From Candidatus Cybelea sp. (GTDB taxonomy: Bacteria; Vulcanimicrobiota; Vulcanimicrobiia; Vulcanimicrobiales; Vulcanimicrobiaceae): a stretch of DNA of 64,000 nt. This document shows positions 1 to 52,952 of the stretch, piece by piece; the stretch's first letter is position 1, and every line of letters starts with the position of its first letter. The DNA lies in contig DASXFZ010000022.1 in the NCBI GenBank assembly GCA_036489315.1, positions 1 through 64,000 on the forward strand. The letters are read 5' to 3'. The translations under genes were made by a program, and so were the position numbers. The notes below the pieces were generated by a model. The model was given only the letters and a program-made list of their open reading frames with translations, was not told the origin of the DNA and made no database searches.

Positions 1-2217
1 CTCGCACTCGTGGGCGATATGCTGGCGGCGCGGCCTTCCGAACGGGCCGTGCTGCTCAGCTCCCGCAAACCGCTGCCGCTCGAAATCGGGCGCTACTTGG
101 CGCCGCACCAAGTACTTACTCTCGGACCGGCCGAGCTGCAACTCGACGGTGAGGAAGCGGCAAGCGTGTTCGAAGGCAGCGACCTCGCACAACCAATCGT
201 CGATCGAATCCTGCGGCTTGCAGCGGGATGGCCGATGGCGCTCCTGCTTTTGGCGCGGATCGCGCACTACGAGCCGGAACTCGAGCAGCTGCTCGACCGA
301 CTCGACGCGATCGCGACCGACCCGCACGAGTATCTGCTTAACGAAGTGTTGGGGGCGCTCACCCCGGAAATGACCACGACCCTGCTCGCGGCGGCCGCCG
401 TCGGAGAAGCGACGCTCGAAGACATCTCGGCCGCGACCGACATCTCCCACGCGGCGCCGATCGTCGAGGGCCTTCTGCGGCTTCCCGGCTTCATCTCGTA
501 CGAATCCGGCGTGTATCGGATGCATCCGCTTTTGCACGCCGCGCTGCGTGCGCGTTACGGCGCCGATTTGAGCGAGTACGTGCTGCGGGCGGCCGGCGGG
601 AACGCGTTGCTCGGCGATTTCCTGCGAGCGGGCGAACTCTACAATGTCGCCGGCGACTGCGCCGCCGCCGCTGCCGCGCTCGATCGTCTGCCGGCGGCAA
701 CGCTCCTGCAACCCTCGCTTCGACTGATCGAGGTGCTCGCGCAGATCCCGGTTTCGGTCATCGTCGCACGGCCGGGACTCTGGATGGCAGTTTTGCGCGA
801 TCGCAGTCGCACGGTCGACGTCGAACGACTTCACCGTGAATCGACCGCACTCCAGCAAGGCGTCGCCCCGCAAGCGGCTCCGGCACTCTACCGCCGGCTG
901 GGCGTGCGCCGCGCGCTGCTCGCGTCGCAGCGAAATCGGTCCGCCGAGGCGCGTGCGGCGCTCGAAAGTCTCGGCCCCGGGCCTTGCGCGGACGAAAACC
1001 CCGAAGAGCACCGGCTCGTTCTGATAACCTCAGCCGTCGTCGCCGCAAAACAAGGGCAGTTTCTCGAAGCCGACGCGTTTGTCGAGCAAGCCGACGCCGT
1101 CCACGGCGCGCGGCATCTGCGCTTCGACGAAGAGCGCGCCGTCATCGCAATGGAGAAGGCGGTAACCCACGGCGATTGGGACGACTTGCTAAAGATCGGC
1201 GAGGAGCGGTTATCCTTCGCCTTGCGGACCGGGCCAACCGAACGGATCGTCGAAGCGGCCCGCGCGGCCTCGCGCGCGGCGTGGTACGGCAACGACGACG
1301 ATCGCGTCGCGGCCGCGCAACAGATCGTCAAGGATTGCGGCCTTCCGGCAGTCGATGCGATCGAAGAAGCGGCGCTCGCCGACCTGCAGGCTGCGCTCGG
1401 AAGCGTTGACCTCGAGCGAGCCGCCGCGCTGCTCGACCGCGCGATCGAACGGATCGATGGATGCGAGAACGATTTCCTGCGAATCGTCGTACGCGTCTGC
1501 GCCGCCCTTCTCGCGCCGGCACAGCGCCGGCGGCTGATCGAGGCGCGCGCGATTGCCGCGCGTATCGAATCGGCACCGCTGCAAACCTCGATCGAGCTGC
1601 TGATCGACTCACCCGAGCCGCGCGACTACGGCATCTTCAAGCGCCTTGCCGTACGCGTCGCGCGCTCGCCGCTTCGAACGCGCCACGATCGGCTCTTCGT
1701 CGACATCGTCCGCGGGCAAGTTCGCCGAGGCTCCGAGGTCCTGCACGTCTCCGACCGCGGCCTGGAGTTGCTCGCCGCACTCGCGCTCTTCGAGGCAGGA
1801 ACCTCGAACGAGAAGCTCGCCGCGGCGCTCTGGCCCGCGCTCGACCGCAAGGCCGGCGTCAACGCGCTCAAAATGTGCGTTTCGCGGACCCGCGCGCAGG
1901 TCGGCGACCGAGAATCGGTTCAAAATGCGAGAAACGGTTACGTGCTTGGCGAACGGGTCGGCTGCGACGTGCGCGAGTGCGAACGTATTCTGCAAGCGGC
2001 ACGCAGCGCGGGCACGCTCGGCGAATCGCTTCGTCAGCAGCTCCGCCGGCTGACCAATGAATGGGGCGACCGGCAGCCCGCGCACGCGGCCGAGTGGAAA
2101 TGGTTCGCGCCCTTTTCAATCCATTTCGGAGAGCTTCGCAGCGAACTAAGCCAGGTGCTGGCAAAAGATGCGGCCCGGCGCGAAAACGGAGGAGCGCGCG
2201 AGACGGTCGCCCCGTAG
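1..2217 (+). CDS. STAND/MalT-like regulator with C-terminal winged helix, 5' end missing
   Basis: The frame is open at the window edge, so the start and the Walker A part of the ATPase lie upstream. The first ~100 visible residues resemble the end of a MalT/LuxR-type STAND ATPase (motif SSRKPLPL, then LAAGWPMALLLLARI). A long Ala/Leu/Arg-rich helical region follows, as in TPR-like sensor domains. Near residues 555-650 there is a winged-helix segment like the DNA-binding part of SARP/BTAD proteins (DIVRGQVRRG, LAAALWPALDRKAGVNALKMCVSRTR). Most MalT relatives end in a LuxR HTH; this one ends in a SARP-like domain. It is probably a ligand-controlled transcription activator with unknown inducer and targets. 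The family call is fairly firm, the function is inference. Confidence 0.7.
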   Translation, partial: LALVGDMLAARPSERAVLLSSRKPLPLEIGRYLAPHQVLTLGPAELQLDGEEAASVFEGSDLAQPIVDRILRLAAGWPMALLLLARIAHYEPELEQLLDRLDAIATDPHEYLLNEVLGALTPEMTTTLLAAAAVGEATLEDISAATDISHAAPIVEGLLRLPGFISYESGVYRMHPLLHAALRARYGADLSEYVLRAAGGNALLGDFLRAGELYNVAGDCAAAAAALDRLPAATLLQPSLRLIEVLAQIPVSVIVARPGLWMAVLRDRSRTVDVERLHRESTALQQGVAPQAAPALYRRLGVRRALLASQRNRSAEARAALESLGPGPCADENPEEHRLVLITSAVVAAKQGQFLEADAFVEQADAVHGARHLRFDEERAVIAMEKAVTHGDWDDLLKIGEERLSFALRTGPTERIVEAARAASRAAWYGNDDDRVAAAQQIVKDCGLPAVDAIEEAALADLQAALGSVDLERAAALLDRAIERIDGCENDFLRIVVRVCAALLAPAQRRRLIEARAIAARIESAPLQTSIELLIDSPEPRDYGIFKRLAVRVARSPLRTRHDRLFVDIVRGQVRRGSEVLHVSDRGLELLAALALFEAGTSNEKLAAALWPALDRKAGVNALKMCVSRTRAQVGDRESVQNARNGYVLGERVGCDVRECERILQAARSAGTLGESLRQQLRRLTNEWGDRQPAHAAEWKWFAPFSIHFGELRSELSQVLAKDAARRENGGARETVAP

Positions 2218-2279: not shown

Positions 2280-3326
2280 GTGACCGGCTCCACGCGCAGG
2301 AAAATCGTCGCAATGTACGCGCTGCTTCTCGCGGCTAACGTGCTGGTTTGGGTCCTCGCGTTCGCGGTCTTTTCGCCCGCGCATGCCCTGCTTTTGGGCA
2401 CCGCTTTGCTGGCCTTTACGTTCGGCTTACGCCACGCCGTCGACGCGGATCACATCTGTGCAATCGACAACGTGACGCGCAAGCTGATGCAGGAGGGCAA
2501 GAGGCCCGTTGCGGTCGGCTTCTACTTCTCGCTCGGGCACTCGACCATCGTCTTCGCGCTCACCGTCGCAATCGCGCTCGGCGCGAGCGCGGTCCGCAGC
2601 CGGCTTCCCAATTTCGAGGCGGTCGGCGGCGCCGTCGGCACCGGCGTATCGGCGCTGTTCCTCTTTATTATCGCCGCCATCAACGCATTCGTGCTCGCCG
2701 ACCTGTTGCGAGCGATGCGCCGCATTGCGGCCGGCGAAGCATACAGCGCGCAGAGCCTTCAGGAATCGCTCGAGGCGCGCGGGCTCCTAGGACGATTCTT
2801 CAAACCGCTCCTGCGCCTAGTGACGCGCAGCCGCCACATGTACCCCATTGGGGTTCTTTTCGGTTTAGGTTTCGACACGGCAACCGAGGTGGGGTTGCTG
2901 GGAATCGCGGCAATCGAGGCGGGAAAAGGTTTGCCGGTGTGGGCTATTTTGCTATTTCCGGCGTTATTCACGGTCGGCATGTCCCTCATCGACACGACCG
3001 ACGGCATTCTGATGCTCGGCGCCTACGGATGGGCGTTCCTGAACCCGGCGCGCAAGTTGTATTACAACGTTGCGGTTACCGCAGCGTCGGTGCTGGTTGC
3101 AGTGCTGATCGGCAGTATTGAAATAGCGAATATCGCCGGTGCGAGCCTTCAATCGGGTTGGATTGGAGGCGCCGTAGCCGGAACGTTTGCCGTGGGGTGG
3201 ATCGCCTCAATGTCGATGGCGGGGCTCTCGAAAGGGAGAAGACCATCGTCAACCAGCCAGGCCTCGAGATGCTTGACGTACGCACTTCCAAACGAGTCGG
3301 CAAGCGCGCCGACGTACGACTCGTAG
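2280..3326 (+). CDS. NiCoT-family nickel/cobalt permease
   Basis: Integral membrane permease for Ni2+ or Co2+ uptake. The diagnostic family signature RHAVDADHICAIDN is present near residues 50-63, with the second conserved block LGFDTATEVGLLG and GMSLIDTTDG further on. About eight hydrophobic segments are visible, and the length (348 aa) fits the family. The GTG at 2280 gives the longest form; an in-frame ATG at 2313 would remove 11 residues. The last ~25 residues (after SKGRR) are not membrane-like and lie antisense to the convergent ribbon-helix-helix gene. That neighbour and the His-rich tail protein support nickel or cobalt homeostasis. The metal preferred cannot be read from the sequence. 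Confidence 0.9.
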   Translation: MTGSTRRKIVAMYALLLAANVLVWVLAFAVFSPAHALLLGTALLAFTFGLRHAVDADHICAIDNVTRKLMQEGKRPVAVGFYFSLGHSTIVFALTVAIALGASAVRSRLPNFEAVGGAVGTGVSALFLFIIAAINAFVLADLLRAMRRIAAGEAYSAQSLQESLEARGLLGRFFKPLLRLVTRSRHMYPIGVLFGLGFDTATEVGLLGIAAIEAGKGLPVWAILLFPALFTVGMSLIDTTDGILMLGAYGWAFLNPARKLYYNVAVTAASVLVAVLIGSIEIANIAGASLQSGWIGGAVAGTFAVGWIASMSMAGLSKGRRPSSTSQASRCLTYALPNESASAPTYDS

Positions 3327-3550
3327 CGAACGCGATCGTTCGCAGCAGCAAACGCGCTCAGCGCCAGGTGCTGACGGCCCATGTACCCCGGCTGCAGCCG
3401 AAGGCCGCCGTGCACGGCGTCGAGGAGGATGTCGCTTGCGGAGCGCGCCGCGTCATCCCGCAGCCGCTGCTCGAACCATTCGTCGAGCTCGAGCGGTAGG
3501 CGCAGCGACCTTACCGGTCCGAGCTTCCCCGAGCCCTTAGGGCGCGACAT
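3149..3550 (-). CDS. ribbon-helix-helix protein, possible metal-responsive regulator
   Basis: 133-residue protein starting at the ATG at 3550 (MSRPKGSGK). Residues ~12-50 (VRSLRLPLELDEWFEQRL, then ARSASDILLDAV) have the strand-helix-helix pattern of CopG/MetJ-type DNA-binding proteins. The C-terminal ~80 residues contain no ACT-like NikR domain that I can recognise, so this is not a standard NikR. The start codon overlaps the end of the upstream GNAT/His-rich gene by 14 nt, which implies translational coupling. The 3' end overlaps the convergent NiCoT gene by 178 nt. A longer frame upstream exists only because it reads the His-rich gene out of frame. A role as nickel or cobalt regulator is inferred from position only. 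Confidence 0.65.
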   Translation of the reverse strand: MSRPKGSGKLGPVRSLRLPLELDEWFEQRLRDDAARSASDILLDAVHGGLRLQPGYMGRQHLALSAFAAANDRVRYESYVGALADSFGSAYVKHLEAWLVDDGLLPFESPAIDIEAIHPTANVPATAPPIQPD

Positions 3551-3734
3551 CGCGCTCGTCTTCGTGATCGTGCTCGTGATCGTGATCGGCTCCGTCGTGC
3601 GAGTGCTCGTGCCGGTGCACGGTGCCGTCGTAGTGGGCGTGCGCATGTGAATGGTCGTGTGTGTGCCCTGGGAAGGCGTCGTCGTGCACGTGCACGGTGC
3701 CGTTGTCATGTTGGTGCGGCAAGCCTTTTTCCAT
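3537..3734 (-). CDS. possible separately translated His-rich protein (internal start)
   Basis: A 65-residue product could start at the ATG at 3734 within the GNAT frame. The minus strand carries GGGAGGT 7 nt before this ATG, a better ribosome binding site than most in the window, while those bases also encode the end of the GNAT domain. The product MEKGLPHQHDNGTVHVHDD... has 18 His and many Asp/Glu, and no fold I recognise. It would be a cytosolic chelator or chaperone for Ni2+, Co2+ or Zn2+, placed beside a NiCoT permease. Whether one fused protein, two proteins, or both are made cannot be decided from sequence. Confidence 0.45.
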   Translation of the reverse strand: MEKGLPHQHDNGTVHVHDDAFPGHTHDHSHAHAHYDGTVHRHEHSHDGADHDHEHDHEDERDVAP

Positions 3735-4214
3735 CGTCCCTACCTCCCGGTGAAAAGCAATCGTACCCTGGTAGCGGGCCAACTCAAAGACTTCGTCTTT
3801 GGCGAAACCGAGCTTTGCGTAGAAGTCCGCCAGGTGCGGCTCGCGACGCGGCAGCTCGACCATGATGCTCGCCGCCTCCGTCTCGTTCGCGTGGGCGATC
3901 GCGCGCTCGACCAGGCCGGCGCCGATGCCGCGGCCGCGTGCTGCTTCGGCCACGTAAAGATCGCTCAGAAACCAGATACGGCGGCAATACCACGACGACC
4001 ACAGCGGATAGAGCTGGATGAAGCCGCTCGCTTCAGCGGCGATCCACCCGACAAAAACAACCGACTCCTCACCTGCCAAACGCTCCTGCAAAAAGCGTTG
4101 CGACGTATCGTCCGTACGCCCCGCGAAGAAGGCTCGATAGGCGTCAAAAAGAGGAAGGATATGCGCGACGTCTCCAGCCGACGCACGCGTAATCCGAAAG
4201 CTTGCGGGCCTCAC
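3537..4214 (-). CDS. GNAT acetyltransferase fused to a His-rich metal-binding tail
   Basis: Residues 1-~155 form a GNAT N-acetyltransferase: the acetyl-CoA binding signature is AARGRGIGAGLVERAI after the beta-4 segment LSDLYV, and YAKLGF closes the fold. From about residue 161 the frame runs without a stop into a 65-residue tail with 18 histidines in HxH and HDH patterns (HTHDHSHAHAH, HDHEHDHEDE), like the metal-binding tails of nickel or zinc handling proteins. The tail begins with an ATG preceded by a strong ribosome binding site, so it may also be made alone (separate entry). The downstream RHH gene overlaps by 14 nt. The acetyl acceptor is unknown. Confidence 0.8.
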   Translation of the reverse strand: MRPASFRITRASAGDVAHILPLFDAYRAFFAGRTDDTSQRFLQERLAGEESVVFVGWIAAEASGFIQLYPLWSSWYCRRIWFLSDLYVAEAARGRGIGAGLVERAIAHANETEAASIMVELPRREPHLADFYAKLGFAKDEVFELARYQGTIAFHREVGTMEKGLPHQHDNGTVHVHDDAFPGHTHDHSHAHAHYDGTVHRHEHSHDGADHDHEHDHEDERDVAP

Positions 4215-4388
4215 TGAACTTCAGTTCGACGCCGGCGCCAAAAATCTAACTACCGCAAGCGGCCGCTGCATCGTTTGTTAACGCATAGACATTTCGAGGC
4301 GCACAGGCTCGCCTGTATTGGTGCCGAAGGGAAGCGCCAGCCCCAACGCGAGTTGGGCGGCCTATTGCTACTTGGAGGTAGGAAGCAC

Positions 4389-6806
4389 ATGCGACACTCG
4401 TCACGCGTGATAGCCTCGCTACTCGGGCTCACGCTTACCCTTACTGCATGCGGAGGACAGAATTCCTCACTTCCGTCGCTGCTTTCGAGCAACGGCGGAC
4501 CAACCGCGGAATCTTCAGTGCGCAACGCGTCACCGGACAAACCGATGATCGCGGTTCCAAAGCTGACCGGCGCGCTGAGCTACACCGACGCGGGACGACG
4601 AGCGGCCAACGCGCCGGCCAGAGTCTCGGTCACGCTGCGCTACAATCATCAAGGCGAACTCGATCGGCTCGTCGCCGGCATCAGCGACCCGCACTCCGGC
4701 TCGCACCGCCATTTTCTCACGGCTAAAGAGTTCAACGAGCACTTCGCGCCGACTCCCGAACAGGAACGCCGCGTAGTTCGCGAACTCGAGCGTGCCGGCT
4801 TTAAGATCGAAAAGCGCTATCCAAACCGCACGATCGTCGATGCTACGGCCCGAACGACGGCCGTCGAACAGTTCTTCTCGACGCAGATTCACGCCGTTCA
4901 TCAAGGAAAGTACGGCGACCGTTATACGAACGTTACGCCGGCAACGGTACCCAAGGCTATCGCCCCGCTCGTGCGCGACGTGTCGGTGAACAACTTGGTC
5001 GTCGTTCGCACCGTGGCCGATCAGAGCGGCGTCGAAACGCAACGCACGGCGCCGGTCTTCCAAACCGATACGCAAGGGCGCACGATCGTTCCGCTGGGGG
5101 GAATACAACCCAACGATTCGAGCGGCCAACTGGTAAACGGTAACTTTGCGAGCGGTTCGCTCAACCCGGGCTGGACCAACGAAAGCACGACTTCAGGCAA
5201 CTACGTTTCGATTACGACCGCGCAGTCGTACCAAAGCACCTACTCCGCCTTCATGGGAACGCTCGGACCGCCGGAGATCAACGGTTGGGCCGCGATCGCG
5301 CAGGAGGTAAAGGTTCCCACGGGCGGCGTCCTCAGTTTCTGGGTCTACCAGGGCTCGAACGAGGGCACGATGGGATACGGCACGCGATACGCGTGGAATG
5401 CGGGCTACCTGCTCAATTCGCGCGGCTCGATTCTCGTGACGTTTTACAAAACCGTCGCCAATACGAACGGATGGGTCAACTACCAGGTTAACCTGAGCCG
5501 CTATGCCGGACAGACCGACTACATCTACTTCGGCAGCTTTGGCGACGGATACTCACAGACGTACCTCTACCAGTATCTCGACGACGTCGCGTGGGCGGGG
5601 GCGACGCCCTCGCCGTCACCGACGCCCACGGCAAAGCCGACGGCAACCCCGACGGTTAGCCCGACCGCGACGCCGACGGCGAAACCGACGGCAACGCCGA
5701 CCGCCGGCCCGACCGCAACGCCAACCGCGCAGCCGACGGCAACACCGACTCCGAGCGCTAATTGCAACAACGCCGCGCCGGATAATGGTCCGCTGACCAA
5801 CTCCACCGGGACGCTGGCGACCGGCGTTGCCAAGCCGTTTGACTTCCCCGTACAGCACGGCTGCAACGGCGCCGGCTACACCGCCGCGATCGTCATCGAC
5901 GATCCGGTAAACAAGAGCTACGTGTCCACGTATCTGTCGGCATCCGGCATCACCCAATCCGGCACGGTCACCAATGAAGCCGTCGATGGCGGCGGCAGCG
6001 GTGACGACCCCGAGACGGATCTCGACGTACAGACGATTTCAGGATTGGCTCCTGGAGCAAACGTTATCGTCTACGACATCGGTTCGCTCGGCGATCAGCA
6101 AATCGAGGACGCGTACAACCAGGTCCTCACCGACGCAAAGGCAACGGCCGTGAACTCGTCGTTCGGGGGCTGCGAATCCAGCGACGTTCCGTTTGCCGAT
6201 TCGACCAACTCGATTGCCGAACAAGGGGCGGCTGAGGGTGTCGAGTTCTCCGCTTCGAGCGGCGATTCGGGAAGTAACGAATGCAGCGGCAGCAAGGGCG
6301 TTAGCGCCCCGGCCGGCGGCCCATACTTCTCATCGATCGGCGGAATCAACTTCACCGATACGAGCGGAGGCGTCCTCGAAACGGTTACGATGGGGAGCGA
6401 GGACGGCGATTCCGGCGGCGGCGGCGTTTCCACGGTCTTCGCGCTGCCGAGCTATCAAAGCGGAATCACCGGGATGATCACGACCGGCCGCAATCAGCCG
6501 GATATCTCGCTGCCGTTCTTCCCCGTTGCGGTCTATACCGGCGGAAAATGGGGTGAGTATCTGGGGACCTCATGGTCGTCACCGGCATCGGTGGCGCTGA
6601 TCATCGAAGCCAACGAACTGCACGGGAGCAAGCTCGGCTGGATCGACCCAGGCGTGTACAGCCTGTTCTCCGCGACGGGTTACAGCAGCTACTACACGCC
6701 GTGTACCTCCGGCAGCAACGGAGCATACTCGTGCAATGCCACGCGGTATAATCAGGCCGCCGGTATCGGAGCTCCGAAGGGCTGGGCCTTAGCCAACGCC
6801 CTCTAA
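4389..6806 (+). CDS. sedolisin-family (S53) protease lipoprotein with inserted lectin-like domain
   Basis: 805-residue exported serine-carboxyl peptidase. The ATG at 4389 follows GGAGGTAGGAAG and opens a lipoprotein signal peptide with lipobox LTAC. Residues ~45-215 are a pro-kumamolisin activation domain (SDPHSGSHRHFLTAKEF, VEQFFSTQIHAVH). Residues ~235-400 look like a beta-sandwich, carbohydrate-binding-like domain (NGNFASGSLNPGW, LDDVAW). A Pro/Thr linker of ATPTAKPT-type units follows. The catalytic domain has the expected Glu542 and Asp546 (DDPETDLDVQ), an Asp in SGDSGS and Ser728 in GTSWSSP. An added domain between propeptide and catalytic unit is unusual. It probably degrades protein at the cell surface. 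Confidence 0.88.
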   Translation: MRHSSRVIASLLGLTLTLTACGGQNSSLPSLLSSNGGPTAESSVRNASPDKPMIAVPKLTGALSYTDAGRRAANAPARVSVTLRYNHQGELDRLVAGISDPHSGSHRHFLTAKEFNEHFAPTPEQERRVVRELERAGFKIEKRYPNRTIVDATARTTAVEQFFSTQIHAVHQGKYGDRYTNVTPATVPKAIAPLVRDVSVNNLVVVRTVADQSGVETQRTAPVFQTDTQGRTIVPLGGIQPNDSSGQLVNGNFASGSLNPGWTNESTTSGNYVSITTAQSYQSTYSAFMGTLGPPEINGWAAIAQEVKVPTGGVLSFWVYQGSNEGTMGYGTRYAWNAGYLLNSRGSILVTFYKTVANTNGWVNYQVNLSRYAGQTDYIYFGSFGDGYSQTYLYQYLDDVAWAGATPSPSPTPTAKPTATPTVSPTATPTAKPTATPTAGPTATPTAQPTATPTPSANCNNAAPDNGPLTNSTGTLATGVAKPFDFPVQHGCNGAGYTAAIVIDDPVNKSYVSTYLSASGITQSGTVTNEAVDGGGSGDDPETDLDVQTISGLAPGANVIVYDIGSLGDQQIEDAYNQVLTDAKATAVNSSFGGCESSDVPFADSTNSIAEQGAAEGVEFSASSGDSGSNECSGSKGVSAPAGGPYFSSIGGINFTDTSGGVLETVTMGSEDGDSGGGGVSTVFALPSYQSGITGMITTGRNQPDISLPFFPVAVYTGGKWGEYLGTSWSSPASVALIIEANELHGSKLGWIDPGVYSLFSATGYSSYYTPCTSGSNGAYSCNATRYNQAAGIGAPKGWALANAL

Positions 6807-6886: not shown

Positions 6887-7801
6887 CTAGATCGGCGTCA
6901 GCGAGAGCGTATCGGTATTGAGGTTATAGCTCCCGGCAGCCACGAGATTGTTCGGGTTCGCGCATATGACGCTATTCTGCGGACCGTATACGACGACGAG
7001 GCCCGAAGGTCCGCACTGCACCTGCACGAGCTGATAGTTGGAAAGGAACGTCTCGCCCGGCGTATTCGGCTGAACCTGATACGAGTTATAGGTGACGTCG
7101 TTCGACACGACCGAACCGTAGACGGCCGCTCCGACCGCCGCCGACGTCACGCCGATCGCCATCGCGCCCCAAAAGCCGCCGCCCCAGTAGTAGGGAGCGG
7201 GAGCCCACGCGACGCCGTGGTTCCAGCCCCACGCGCCGCCGCCGCCGTAGATGGGATTGTTCACGACGGTTCGGTTGTTGTTGACGTTGATATTACCGTT
7301 GTTGACGTTGGTGCGGTTGTTGTTATTGTTGTTGCGGTTTCCGCTGCCGTTGCCGTTATTGCGGTTTCCATTGCCGTTGTTGCCGTTATTGCGGTTTCCG
7401 TTGCCGTTGTTGCCGTTTCCGCGGTTTCCATTGCCGTTGTTGCCGTTTCCACGGTTGCCGTTGCCGTTGTTGCCGTTTCCACGGTTGCCGTTGCCGGGAT
7501 TGCCGTTTCCGCGGTTAGGGTTGCCGCTGATGCTGCCGCGATTGCCGCCCGTCGTCGGGGCGCGACCGGTATCGCGCGAGAGGTTGAAACCGCCGCCGGG
7601 ATTGCTCGGCCGGGACGACATCCCACCGCTTGGCCGCGCCCCACCGCTGGGCCGCGACGTGCCTCCTGAAGGGCGCGACATGCCTCCCGAGGGTCGCCCT
7701 CCGCCTCTCCCTCCGCCGCCACCCCCGCCGCGCCGCTGTGCGGATGCCGCCACCGGAGGAACGGCCATGAGAAGGGCCATCAGGATCCAGAGATACTTCA
7801 T
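6887..7801 (-). CDS. exported Gly/Asn-rich low-complexity surface protein
   Basis: About 304 residues. A signal peptide (MKYLWILMALLMAVPPVAASAQ) is followed by an Arg/Gly/Ser/Pro-rich stretch with RPSGG units, then ~90 residues made almost entirely of Asn, Gly and Arg (NGNRGNGN units). A Gly/Trp/Tyr-rich segment follows (GGGGAWGWNHGVAWAPAPYY), one glycine/alanine-rich membrane-like segment, and a compact C-terminus with two Cys. I do not recognise the family. Such composition suggests a disordered, hydrated wall or matrix protein. The ATG at 7801 overlaps the TGA of the upstream gene by one base (TGATG), so the two are coupled; a GTG just before would add one residue. Confidence 0.7.
   Translation of the reverse strand: MKYLWILMALLMAVPPVAASAQRRGGGGGGGRGGGRPSGGMSRPSGGTSRPSGGARPSGGMSSRPSNPGGGFNLSRDTGRAPTTGGNRGSISGNPNRGNGNPGNGNRGNGNNGNGNRGNGNNGNGNRGNGNNGNGNRNNGNNGNGNRNNGNGSGNRNNNNNNRTNVNNGNINVNNNRTVVNNPIYGGGGAWGWNHGVAWAPAPYYWGGGFWGAMAIGVTSAAVGAAVYGSVVSNDVTYNSYQVQPNTPGETFLSNYQLVQVQCGPSGLVVVYGPQNSVICANPNNLVAAGSYNLNTDTLSLTPI
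7270..7530. repeat. in-frame NGN/NRG codon repeat
   Basis: Tandem degenerate units encoding NGNNGNGNRG and variants on the minus strand, seen on the plus strand as runs of ccgttgttgccg and gcggtttccattg. The unit is a multiple of three, so length changes stay in frame. It could vary in copy number between strains. Confidence 0.85.
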
Positions 7802-8265
7802 CACTTCACCACCTTGTCAATGCGGCCGCGCAAGCTCACATACGTTCCGCGGTCGGTCGTGAACGAGAGCAGGATGCCGTGCGGAGGAACCTTCGTGGTC
7901 GACATCACGAGCTGCGCAGGTGCGTCGGTCGAGTTCACGTACAGCGTCCCGTGGTGCATGTCGAGCGTCTTCGTCGCGCCCGACTGAACGAGTACGCCGT
8001 GGTGCGCCAAGCAGACCAGGAGATCACCCTGATAGGAGCACGCCGCGCGGGTGATGACGATCGTGCCTTTTCCGTCTTCCGATGTAATATAGAGCGCACT
8101 GTGGATGATCTTGATTTGGACGCCGGCGTATTTGTTCGAGTGCCCATCGCTCTGCACGATCTCAACCGTGCCGGTGGCGGCGGCGGGCGCCGTGCCCAGC
8201 GCCAGCCAGGCGACGATGGCGAACGATCCGGCCGCCGCTTTTAGTCTTTCGGAGTACGATAGCAT
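7801..8265 (-). CDS. small exported protein of unknown function
   Basis: 154 residues with an N-terminal signal peptide (hydrophobic FAIVAWLALGTAPAAA with a likely cleavage after AAA). The mature part is beta-rich with two Cys (ACSYQGDLLVC) and repeated short hydrophobic strands (GVQIKIIHSALYITSEDG, GILLSFTTDRGTYVSLRG). I recognise no family. A good ribosome binding site (AAAGGAAACC) precedes the ATG. The stop overlaps the start of the Gly/Asn-rich protein gene, so the two products are probably made together and could interact outside the cell. Confidence 0.65.
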   Translation of the reverse strand: MLSYSERLKAAAGSFAIVAWLALGTAPAAATGTVEIVQSDGHSNKYAGVQIKIIHSALYITSEDGKGTIVITRAACSYQGDLLVCLAHHGVLVQSGATKTLDMHHGTLYVNSTDAPAQLVMSTTKVPPHGILLSFTTDRGTYVSLRGRIDKVVK

Positions 8266-51929: not shown

Positions 51930-52759
51930 CAATGCTCCCCACGCCGTGCGATCGGTTCCAGACGCGCGATCAGCCAGCGAATTGCGTCGTTGTATTGCGG
52001 CCCCGGACGTTCCAAGAGATCGGGTTGCGCTTCGTAGACGCGGCCCAAGCGAACCGCGCGCAGACCGCGCCAAGGCTCGCGGTCTAGGGCTGAGTCGAGT
52101 TTCGCAATCCGATCGGCGATCAGCACGTCGGGCTGGTCGGTGACCAGCGTCTCTGCGCTGTACTGTGCGTAAGGCGTTTTCAGCTGCGCCGCGTTACGTC
52201 CCCCGGCAATCGCGATCAGTCTCGAGATGTACGACGACGTGCCGGCCGTCCAAATTGGAGCGGCCTGCAAAACGACGAAGACGCGCGGGTGCCAGGCGAA
52301 CCGCCGTGCGCGCTGCGCGAGGGCCGCGGTCTCGCGCTGCAAGCGCGAGATCGTAGCCTCTGCCTCTTTCCCCCGCCCGGTCAGCGCGCCGATCGTCGAG
52401 AGGTTCGAAAAGATCTGGTCGTAGCCGTCGTCGGATAACAGGACGACCCGCAAGCCTGCTCGACGCAACGGCTCGACGAGCCGCGCCTGCGAGGGAATCC
52501 CCAGCACGAGCTCGGGACGCAAAGCCACGATAGCCTCGGCGTCGACGCTGTTGGCATCGGAGACTCGCGGCAGCGCTGCGGCACGAGGGTCGTCGGTAAA
52601 GGCGGAGACGGCTGCGAGCTGCCGCCCCGCGCCCAGCGTGTAGACGTCGTCGGCGAACGACGGCACGAGCGTGACGATCCCGCCGCCGGCAGCGGGCTTC
52701 GCACCGGCGCACCCGGCAAGCAGCGCCACGAGGAAAAGGGTAGACGCACGGATCTGCAC
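51929..52759 (-). CDS. btuF: cobalamin ABC transporter substrate-binding lipoprotein
   Basis: 276 residues from the GTG at 52759 (lipobox LLAGC follows a short hydrophobic signal). The BtuF/FecB-like fold is seen in IVTLVPSFADDVYTLGAGRQLAAVSAFTDDP (in parts), LRPELVLGIPSQARLVEPLRRAGLRV, and TAGTSSYISRLIAIAGGRN. It should bind cobalamin in the periplasm and deliver it to BtuCD. The gene runs away from the riboswitch, so it is not part of the btuBCD message and is cotranscribed with hflX. A longer frame upstream is riboswitch and btuB antisense. Confidence 0.85.
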   Translation of the reverse strand: MQIRASTLFLVALLAGCAGAKPAAGGGIVTLVPSFADDVYTLGAGRQLAAVSAFTDDPRAAALPRVSDANSVDAEAIVALRPELVLGIPSQARLVEPLRRAGLRVVLLSDDGYDQIFSNLSTIGALTGRGKEAEATISRLQRETAALAQRARRFAWHPRVFVVLQAAPIWTAGTSSYISRLIAIAGGRNAAQLKTPYAQYSAETLVTDQPDVLIADRIAKLDSALDREPWRGLRAVRLGRVYEAQPDLLERPGPQYNDAIRWLIARLEPIARRGEH

Positions 52760-52774
52760 AATTGGCGATTCTAC

Positions 52775-52913
52775 GTTTTGCGCGGGAAGCCGGTGTGATG
52801 CCGGCACGGTCGCGCCACTGTATGCGGGGAGCCGCCCGAAGTCACTGTCCGGCAACGGATGGGAAGGCTCGGGCACCGGCGACGATCCGCGAGTCAGGAT
52901 ACCGTCGCAAAAC
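52775..52913 (+). promoter_or_regulatory. cobalamin riboswitch upstream of btuBCD
   Basis: All hallmark blocks occur in order on the plus strand: GGGAAGCCGGTGTGATGCCGG, CGCCACTGT, GAAGTCACTG, GGGAAGG and GAGTCAGGATACC (the B12 box, 52891-52903). GTTTTGCG (52775-52782) and CGCAAAAC (52906-52913) form the closing P1 helix. The btuB ribosome binding site GGGAAAGG lies ~26 nt after P1, consistent with translational control. B12 binding should lower btuB, btuC and btuD expression. Confidence 0.95.
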
Positions 52914-52952
52914 ATTCGTGCACGTCCACCTCGCGTCAGGGAAAGGATTGCG

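Follow-up and report, generated by a model that had tools for sequence, protein, structure and literature searches.

A conserved gene pair encoding a histidine-rich mini-protein and a small partner protein, with a probable role in nickel supply in Eremiobacterota

The window analysed here, a 64,000-nucleotide stretch of DNA from Candidatus Cybelea sp. (genome G000), contains a conserved unit in which a gene for a histidine-rich mini-protein is closely coupled to a gene for a small partner protein. Sequence comparison makes it probable that the mini-protein is a cytoplasmic nickel buffer or donor, Hpn-like in role, accompanied by a partner that is possibly metal-responsive. The same reading, which we hold as a whole with moderate confidence, has a free mini-protein produced by initiation at position 3734, a GNAT acetyltransferase frame that simply runs into the His gene in this single genome (any fused form being incidental), and a two-gene cassette that would provide for nickel supply at one end of a locus for a group-1h-like [NiFe]-hydrogenase. 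The features of the window that bear on it are as follows.

1–2217, forward strand: C-terminal portion of a large regulator-like gene that the contig end truncates; the N-terminal portion is on contig C19
2226–2234, forward strand: TTTGTCTAC, half of a candidate operator, with the NiCoT frame starting some 45 nt downstream
2280–3326, forward strand: NiCoT (HoxN/HupN/NixA-type) nickel/cobalt permease gene, convergent with the partner gene
3149–3550, reverse strand: partner protein gene (133 aa); N-terminus ribbon-helix-helix (RHH)-like by eye, conserved H47 and H94, usually H60 and a Cys
3537–3734, reverse strand: His-rich mini-protein gene (65 aa, 18 His), with alternating HxH and HxDGTxHxH; the conserved element
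3735–4214, reverse strand: GNAT acetyltransferase gene, reading through into the His gene; outside the module
3742–3748, reverse strand: Shine-Dalgarno sequence GGGAGGT, 7 nt before the ATG at 3734
3760–3787, reverse strand: TTGAGT-16-TACGAT, a possible promoter within the last part of the GNAT frame; weak, by consensus only

The reverse-strand frame at 3537–4214 encodes 225 residues from a GTG start with zero internal stops. As a sequence-only reading of this DNA had described, an open GNAT frame runs into a 65-residue tail with 18 histidines, and this tail has its own ATG at 3734 behind GGGAGGT at a spacing of 7 nt. The GNAT domain occupies residues 24 to 137–140 (Pfam PF00583, Acetyltransf_1; 49 bits against a cut-off of 20.7) and the His-rich tail lies outside it. 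That reading had also counted the GNAT enzyme as a member of the module, which the comparison with relatives does not uphold. In seven genomes of the same genus the GNAT orthologues (61–68% identity) stop 3–10 residues past the domain and its F[ED]LAR motif, each in different, unrelated surroundings; six of these genomes have no partner gene, and G002 carries both the GNAT gene and the module on separate contigs (C49 and C76). GNAT is absent from all 16 other partner-gene loci. The fusion, for which a search in relatives had been proposed, was found in no other genome searched and is confined to the window genome; what the seven relatives show is in substance a GNAT frame that ends before any His-rich tail. 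We therefore reject GNAT-His as a conserved fused protein, because its orthologues stop after the domain at unrelated places.

A genuine bifunctional protein, in which an enzyme carries a metal-binding tail and an internal start also releases the tail in free form, would account for a frame that is stop-free and of coding composition throughout. It is nevertheless very unlikely, given that GNAT orthologues terminate with the domain and have other genomic positions, that among the genomes searched only this one has the fusion and that the His gene is unjoined to GNAT at every other locus; moreover, by our own estimate an in-frame, stop-free junction of 12 codons would arise by chance about 1 time in 5. 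The 12 codons of the GNAT frame at this point resemble the leader of the His gene itself, Shine-Dalgarno sequence included. If the frame is shifted by one, GNAT would stop at a TAG 6 nt before the ATG at 3734, so that an assembly indel at the junction is possible, and the fusion in this genome may reflect either a real apposition of genes or such an indel. The locus is also a warning that a small gene crossed by an open frame can pass for a fused domain.

The free mini-protein of the preferred reading has close counterparts in relatives. In G002 (MSDNLPHRHED...) and G015 (MKDNLPHEHDN...) free His proteins with 63–65% identity to the window tail start at the residue equivalent to the in-frame ATG at 3734–3732 (MEKGLPHQHDN...), which supports the claim of a separate start and ribosome-binding site for the tail; the free His genes of G015, G002, G033 and G091 are likewise preceded by GGAGG. 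The hexamers TACGAT (window genome), TACAAT (G015) and TAGAAT (G002) lie about 23–25 nt before the respective starts, and this similar distance weakly suggests that the His gene has its own promoter. Beyond these two genomes, His-rich counterparts are present at 12 further partner-gene loci, and the relatives of the mini-protein are about 55–75 aa long with 12–33 histidines. Differences between the window tail and those of two relatives fall on codon positions 1, 2 and 3 in the numbers 13/13/29 and 16/12/28, and none of the other five frames is conserved as well as the His frame (63–65% identity). The fewer changes at the first two positions, together with the conservation of this frame, show that it codes for a protein and is not a low-complexity artefact. 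No other frame of at least 50 codons in the 64 kb window has at least 12 histidines per 60 residues.

Of 117 genomes examined in the class, 15, counting that of the window, encode relatives of the partner protein, and these 15 belong to one family of Eremiobacterota; there were no further relatives among 149 genomes of the phylum, and a pattern scan of GTDB contigs returned 12 loci, all on contigs already found in that family. These 15 genomes have 17 partner-gene loci, the window included, and at 15 of them the partner gene directly follows a His-rich ORF; one of the two remaining loci has no His-rich ORF and the other is masked by N. Spacing between the two genes ranges in most loci from a 14-nt overlap, as in the window (partner start ATG at 3550–3548), to a separation of about 31 nt. 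A single protein of 137 residues in G117 (L053, 7020–7430) comprises both the His-rich segment and the partner, and contig C22 of G110 has a degraded partner gene farther from its His gene. A longer form of the partner, with its N-terminus extended across the His gene (ORF 3149–3709), was rejected because stops lie before the homologous start in several relatives.

The surroundings of this unit are rich in genes for metal transport, and the proposal that the tail, the overlapping small gene and the NiCoT gene make up a metal-linked unit is supported. The window permease is a member of the NiCoT family (NicO, PF03824, 297.9 bits; TIGR00802, 350.9 bits, above the cut-off) with nothing unusual in itself. 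It had been described as lying opposite the GNAT gene; the permease is confirmed by these profiles, and the antisense gene that overlaps the 3' end of its frame is the downstream reverse-strand ORF encoding the partner, not the GNAT frame. NiCoT genes lie near the partner gene at 7 of the 16 other loci and, counting the window, are found beside or near the module in G000, G002, G015, G091, G110, G090, G031 and G036, with a NicO relative more distant from the module in G117. TonB-dependent receptor genes adjoin the module in G025, G033, G091 and G110. There are hyp genes beside it in G002 (HypD, and HypC by sequence) and G015 (HypB-type), and a His-rich HypB-type protein in G091; elsewhere, the HypB-type protein beside NiCoT in G029 has a His-rich end, and the HypB proteins of G000 and G015 have no His-rich stretch. 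All three module loci of the window genus have NiCoT; at two of them hyp genes are immediate neighbours, and at the third a hydrogenase lies about 5 kb away. Some module loci instead adjoin genes for a manganese-efflux-type pump, an NRAMP transporter or copper-type proteins. His-rich segments also take another form at this kind of hydrogenase locus: G003 has a free His-rich mini-protein gene (L097:6533–6730) directly upstream of NiCoT, with no partner gene.

NiCoT permeases can transport cobalt as well as nickel. A cobalamin riboswitch at 52748–52924 of the window precedes genes for a BtuB-like TonB-type receptor and a BtuCD-like permease and ATPase (named from sequence); import of vitamin B12 is therefore probable, which makes nickel somewhat likelier than cobalt as the substrate of the window NiCoT. 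Riboswitch control of the module was rejected, as no Rfam riboswitch was found at eight related loci and the cobalamin riboswitch, the only one in the window, is 49 kb away.

The connection to the hydrogenase runs through the left end of the window. A 15-nt identical overlap, CTCGCACTCGTGGGC, joins positions 1–15 of the window to the left end of contig C19 (L096:1–387) inside one gene, the large regulator-like gene, which has no Pfam match; both parts align in order to one protein in G015 and one in G003. Beyond the overlap, C19 carries a gene for a HypB-type GTPase, the small and large hydrogenase subunit genes, hypC and hypD. If the window and C19 do join at this overlap within a single gene, some 5 kb separate the module from the hydrogenase operon. 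The best PDB match of the large subunit is 5aa5 (1064 bits; next best 157 bits), which we take to be a group 1h enzyme, and small-subunit profiles match next to it; judged by this closest PDB structure, the C19 enzyme appears to be a group-1h-like [NiFe]-hydrogenase. Across the class, a hydrogenase accompanies the module in 12 of 15 module genomes vs 10 of 102 others (Fisher, 3e-8) and, at the level of genera, in 9 of 11 vs 7 of 37 (3e-4), both values ignoring phylogeny. There is no convincing [NiFe]-hydrogenase in three of the module genomes (G024, G032 and G117). The Eremiobacterota live in soil, where atmospheric hydrogen is credited with providing part of their livelihood; a group 1h hydrogenase has been reported in them (PMC9758169). 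No description of how nickel is supplied to the group 1h hydrogenase of Eremiobacterota was found in the literature searched.

The proposed role builds on what is observed: gene content, conservation, close spacing and, in several genomes, proximity to genes for NiCoT, Hyp proteins and TonB receptors. Since the module is often beside genes for nickel transport and hydrogen enzymes, the mini-protein probably buffers nickel for a hydrogen-oxidising enzyme. Nickel would enter via NiCoT; the mini-protein would bind Ni(II) in the cytoplasm after import, buffer it and deliver it to HypB in the course of hydrogenase maturation, in place of the His stretch that this HypB does not have. More tentatively, the partner might sense the metal, with or without the mini-protein, and adjust uptake or supply genes. 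The sequence-only reading had envisaged a module of acetylation, buffering and regulation: a putative buffering function is retained, regulation perhaps, and acetylation has been dropped with the GNAT gene. The varied metal-transporter neighbours and the three module genomes with no convincing hydrogenase imply that the metal may vary, and these same points, with the neighbouring manganese-efflux-type, NRAMP and copper-type genes and the established ability of His-rich peptides to bind several metals, would fit general metal detoxification, in which the mini-protein sequesters whichever divalent metal (Ni, Co, Zn, Cu or Mn) the neighbouring transporter handles and has no specific tie to hydrogenase. 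We regard this as possible but rather improbable, in view of the strong co-occurrence of module and hydrogenase and of the window genus, whose three loci all combine NiCoT with hyp genes or a hydrogenase nearby.

The partner protein itself belongs to a family of about 105–135 residues. An alignment of 15 sequences shows the common motifs RSxRLPxxLDxW, SxS[ED], HGGLRL, GYM and YVxHxxxWL, with H47 and H94 invariant. It had been called an overlapping RHH regulator; the ORF at 3149–3550 and its 14-nt overlap are real, and the RHH assignment is treated here as a hypothesis, which profile, PDB and fold searches did not confirm. The first 50 or so residues resemble ribbon-helix-helix by eye and may belong to an RHH regulator. 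Searches of Pfam, NCBIfam and the PDB sequences gave no match for the protein, a PHROG search with 11 members gave one weak Arc-like match, and profile comparison with five genomic RHH proteins gave no RHH match. Two AlphaFold models contain helices only (pLDDT 72 and 76, the N-terminus at low confidence), and neither has a Foldseek match.

Upstream of NiCoT and TonB-receptor genes in several genomes, across several genera, lies a candidate operator, TTGTCTAC-N3-GTAGACAA. Its half-site TTTGTCTAC is common to the NiCoT upstream regions of G000, G002 and, inverted, G015. A full palindrome, TTGTCTACAATGTAGACAA, lies between NiCoT and the TonB receptor in G091; with two mismatches it occurs before the NicO gene in G117 and a TonB receptor gene in G110, and with three before a TonB receptor gene in G033. 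One site that was not used to define the motif is in G003, some 100 nt ahead of the gene for an orthologous TonB receptor (55–58% identity). Palindrome sites before NiCoT and TonB-receptor genes were located at:

L056:4413–4431, palindrome site
L136:1501–1519, palindrome site
L150:1501–1519, palindrome site
L148:1501–1519, palindrome site

A class-wide scan at up to two mismatches gave 21 sites, not above the reversed control. Three such sites fall inside the module loci, which together span 178 kb, vs an expectation of 0.011, a figure to be read with the caveat that G091 helped define the motif and that a half-site scan had first brought all three to light. At up to three mismatches the operator was not found near most module loci. 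A variant with a 2-nt spacer was rejected, its matches not being above control, and the spacer is taken as 3 nt. BlaI/CopY-type repressors were likewise rejected as binders of the palindrome: PF03965 proteins are present in all eight genomes tested, none of them near the sites.

These sites bear on whether the partner is a nickel-responsive RHH repressor standing in for NikR, itself an RHH nickel-responsive regulator. Such a repressor would bind TTGTCTAC-N3-GTAGACAA and repress uptake genes of the NiCoT and TonB kinds, and the His-rich protein would serve it as a metal donor or sensor extension; this adds to the buffer role and does not replace it. Like NikR, the partner lies near nickel uptake genes and has an RHH-like N-terminal pattern by eye (RSxRLPxxLDxW...SxSELL); NikR_C (PF08753) has no match in the 117 class genomes, and the invariant histidines, the fusion of the His segment to the partner in G117 and the candidate operator upstream of NiCoT and TonB genes in module genomes are all consistent with the idea. 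Unlike NikR, the partner has no NikR_C domain and a different C-terminal half. We judge the repressor unlikely, since Pfam, PDB sequence, fold and profile comparisons all gave no RHH match and the operator is missing near most module loci. The operator also occurs in a genome with no partner gene, G003, so that its binder may be a protein other than the partner. An extended form, in which the partner founds a new family of metal-sensing regulators, a co-translated and sometimes fused His-rich peptide serves as its metal-loading arm, and nickel uptake is controlled through this operator in hydrogen-oxidising Eremiobacterota with no NikR, seems distinctly unlikely.

HypB is a GTPase with a His-rich stretch for nickel storage or insertion. 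The functionally nearest known proteins to the mini-protein are Hpn/Hpn-2 and His-rich HypB. Like the HypB stretch, for which the same role is proposed and which recurs in His-rich HypB-type proteins at comparable loci in G029 and G091, the mini-protein would hold nickel; unlike it, the His-rich part in the window is a separate gene, accompanied, as in G015, by a HypB with no such stretch. Hpn and Hpn-2 are small histidine-rich nickel proteins of Helicobacter pylori, Hpn having two Cys pairs and Hpn-2 a Gln-rich tail (PMC4671568). The window protein shares their size (65 aa against 60–66 aa), their extreme histidine content, their encoding by small genes that are easily missed or misannotated, and a tie to nickel supply for nickel enzymes. 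It differs in having neither Cys pairs nor a Gln-rich tail, in its histidine pattern of alternating HxH with HxDGTxHxH, in its coupled partner gene and in its phylum; the likeness is one of proposed functional role and is not put forward as sequence homology. In the literature searched, no account of such a pair of His-rich mini-protein and partner was found. The lineage-restricted His-rich protein, its partner and the candidate operator would form a directly testable nickel-supply and sensing system.

Two further frames of the window were noted beyond the GNAT gene. A large forward-strand ORF at 4275–6806 has a lipoprotein-like N-terminus and a protease-like C-terminal part, with a linker of TPTA(K/Q)PTATPT repeats, and a reverse-strand ORF of 305 aa at 6887–7804 contains long Gly/Asn/Arg repeats (GNGNRGNGN...).
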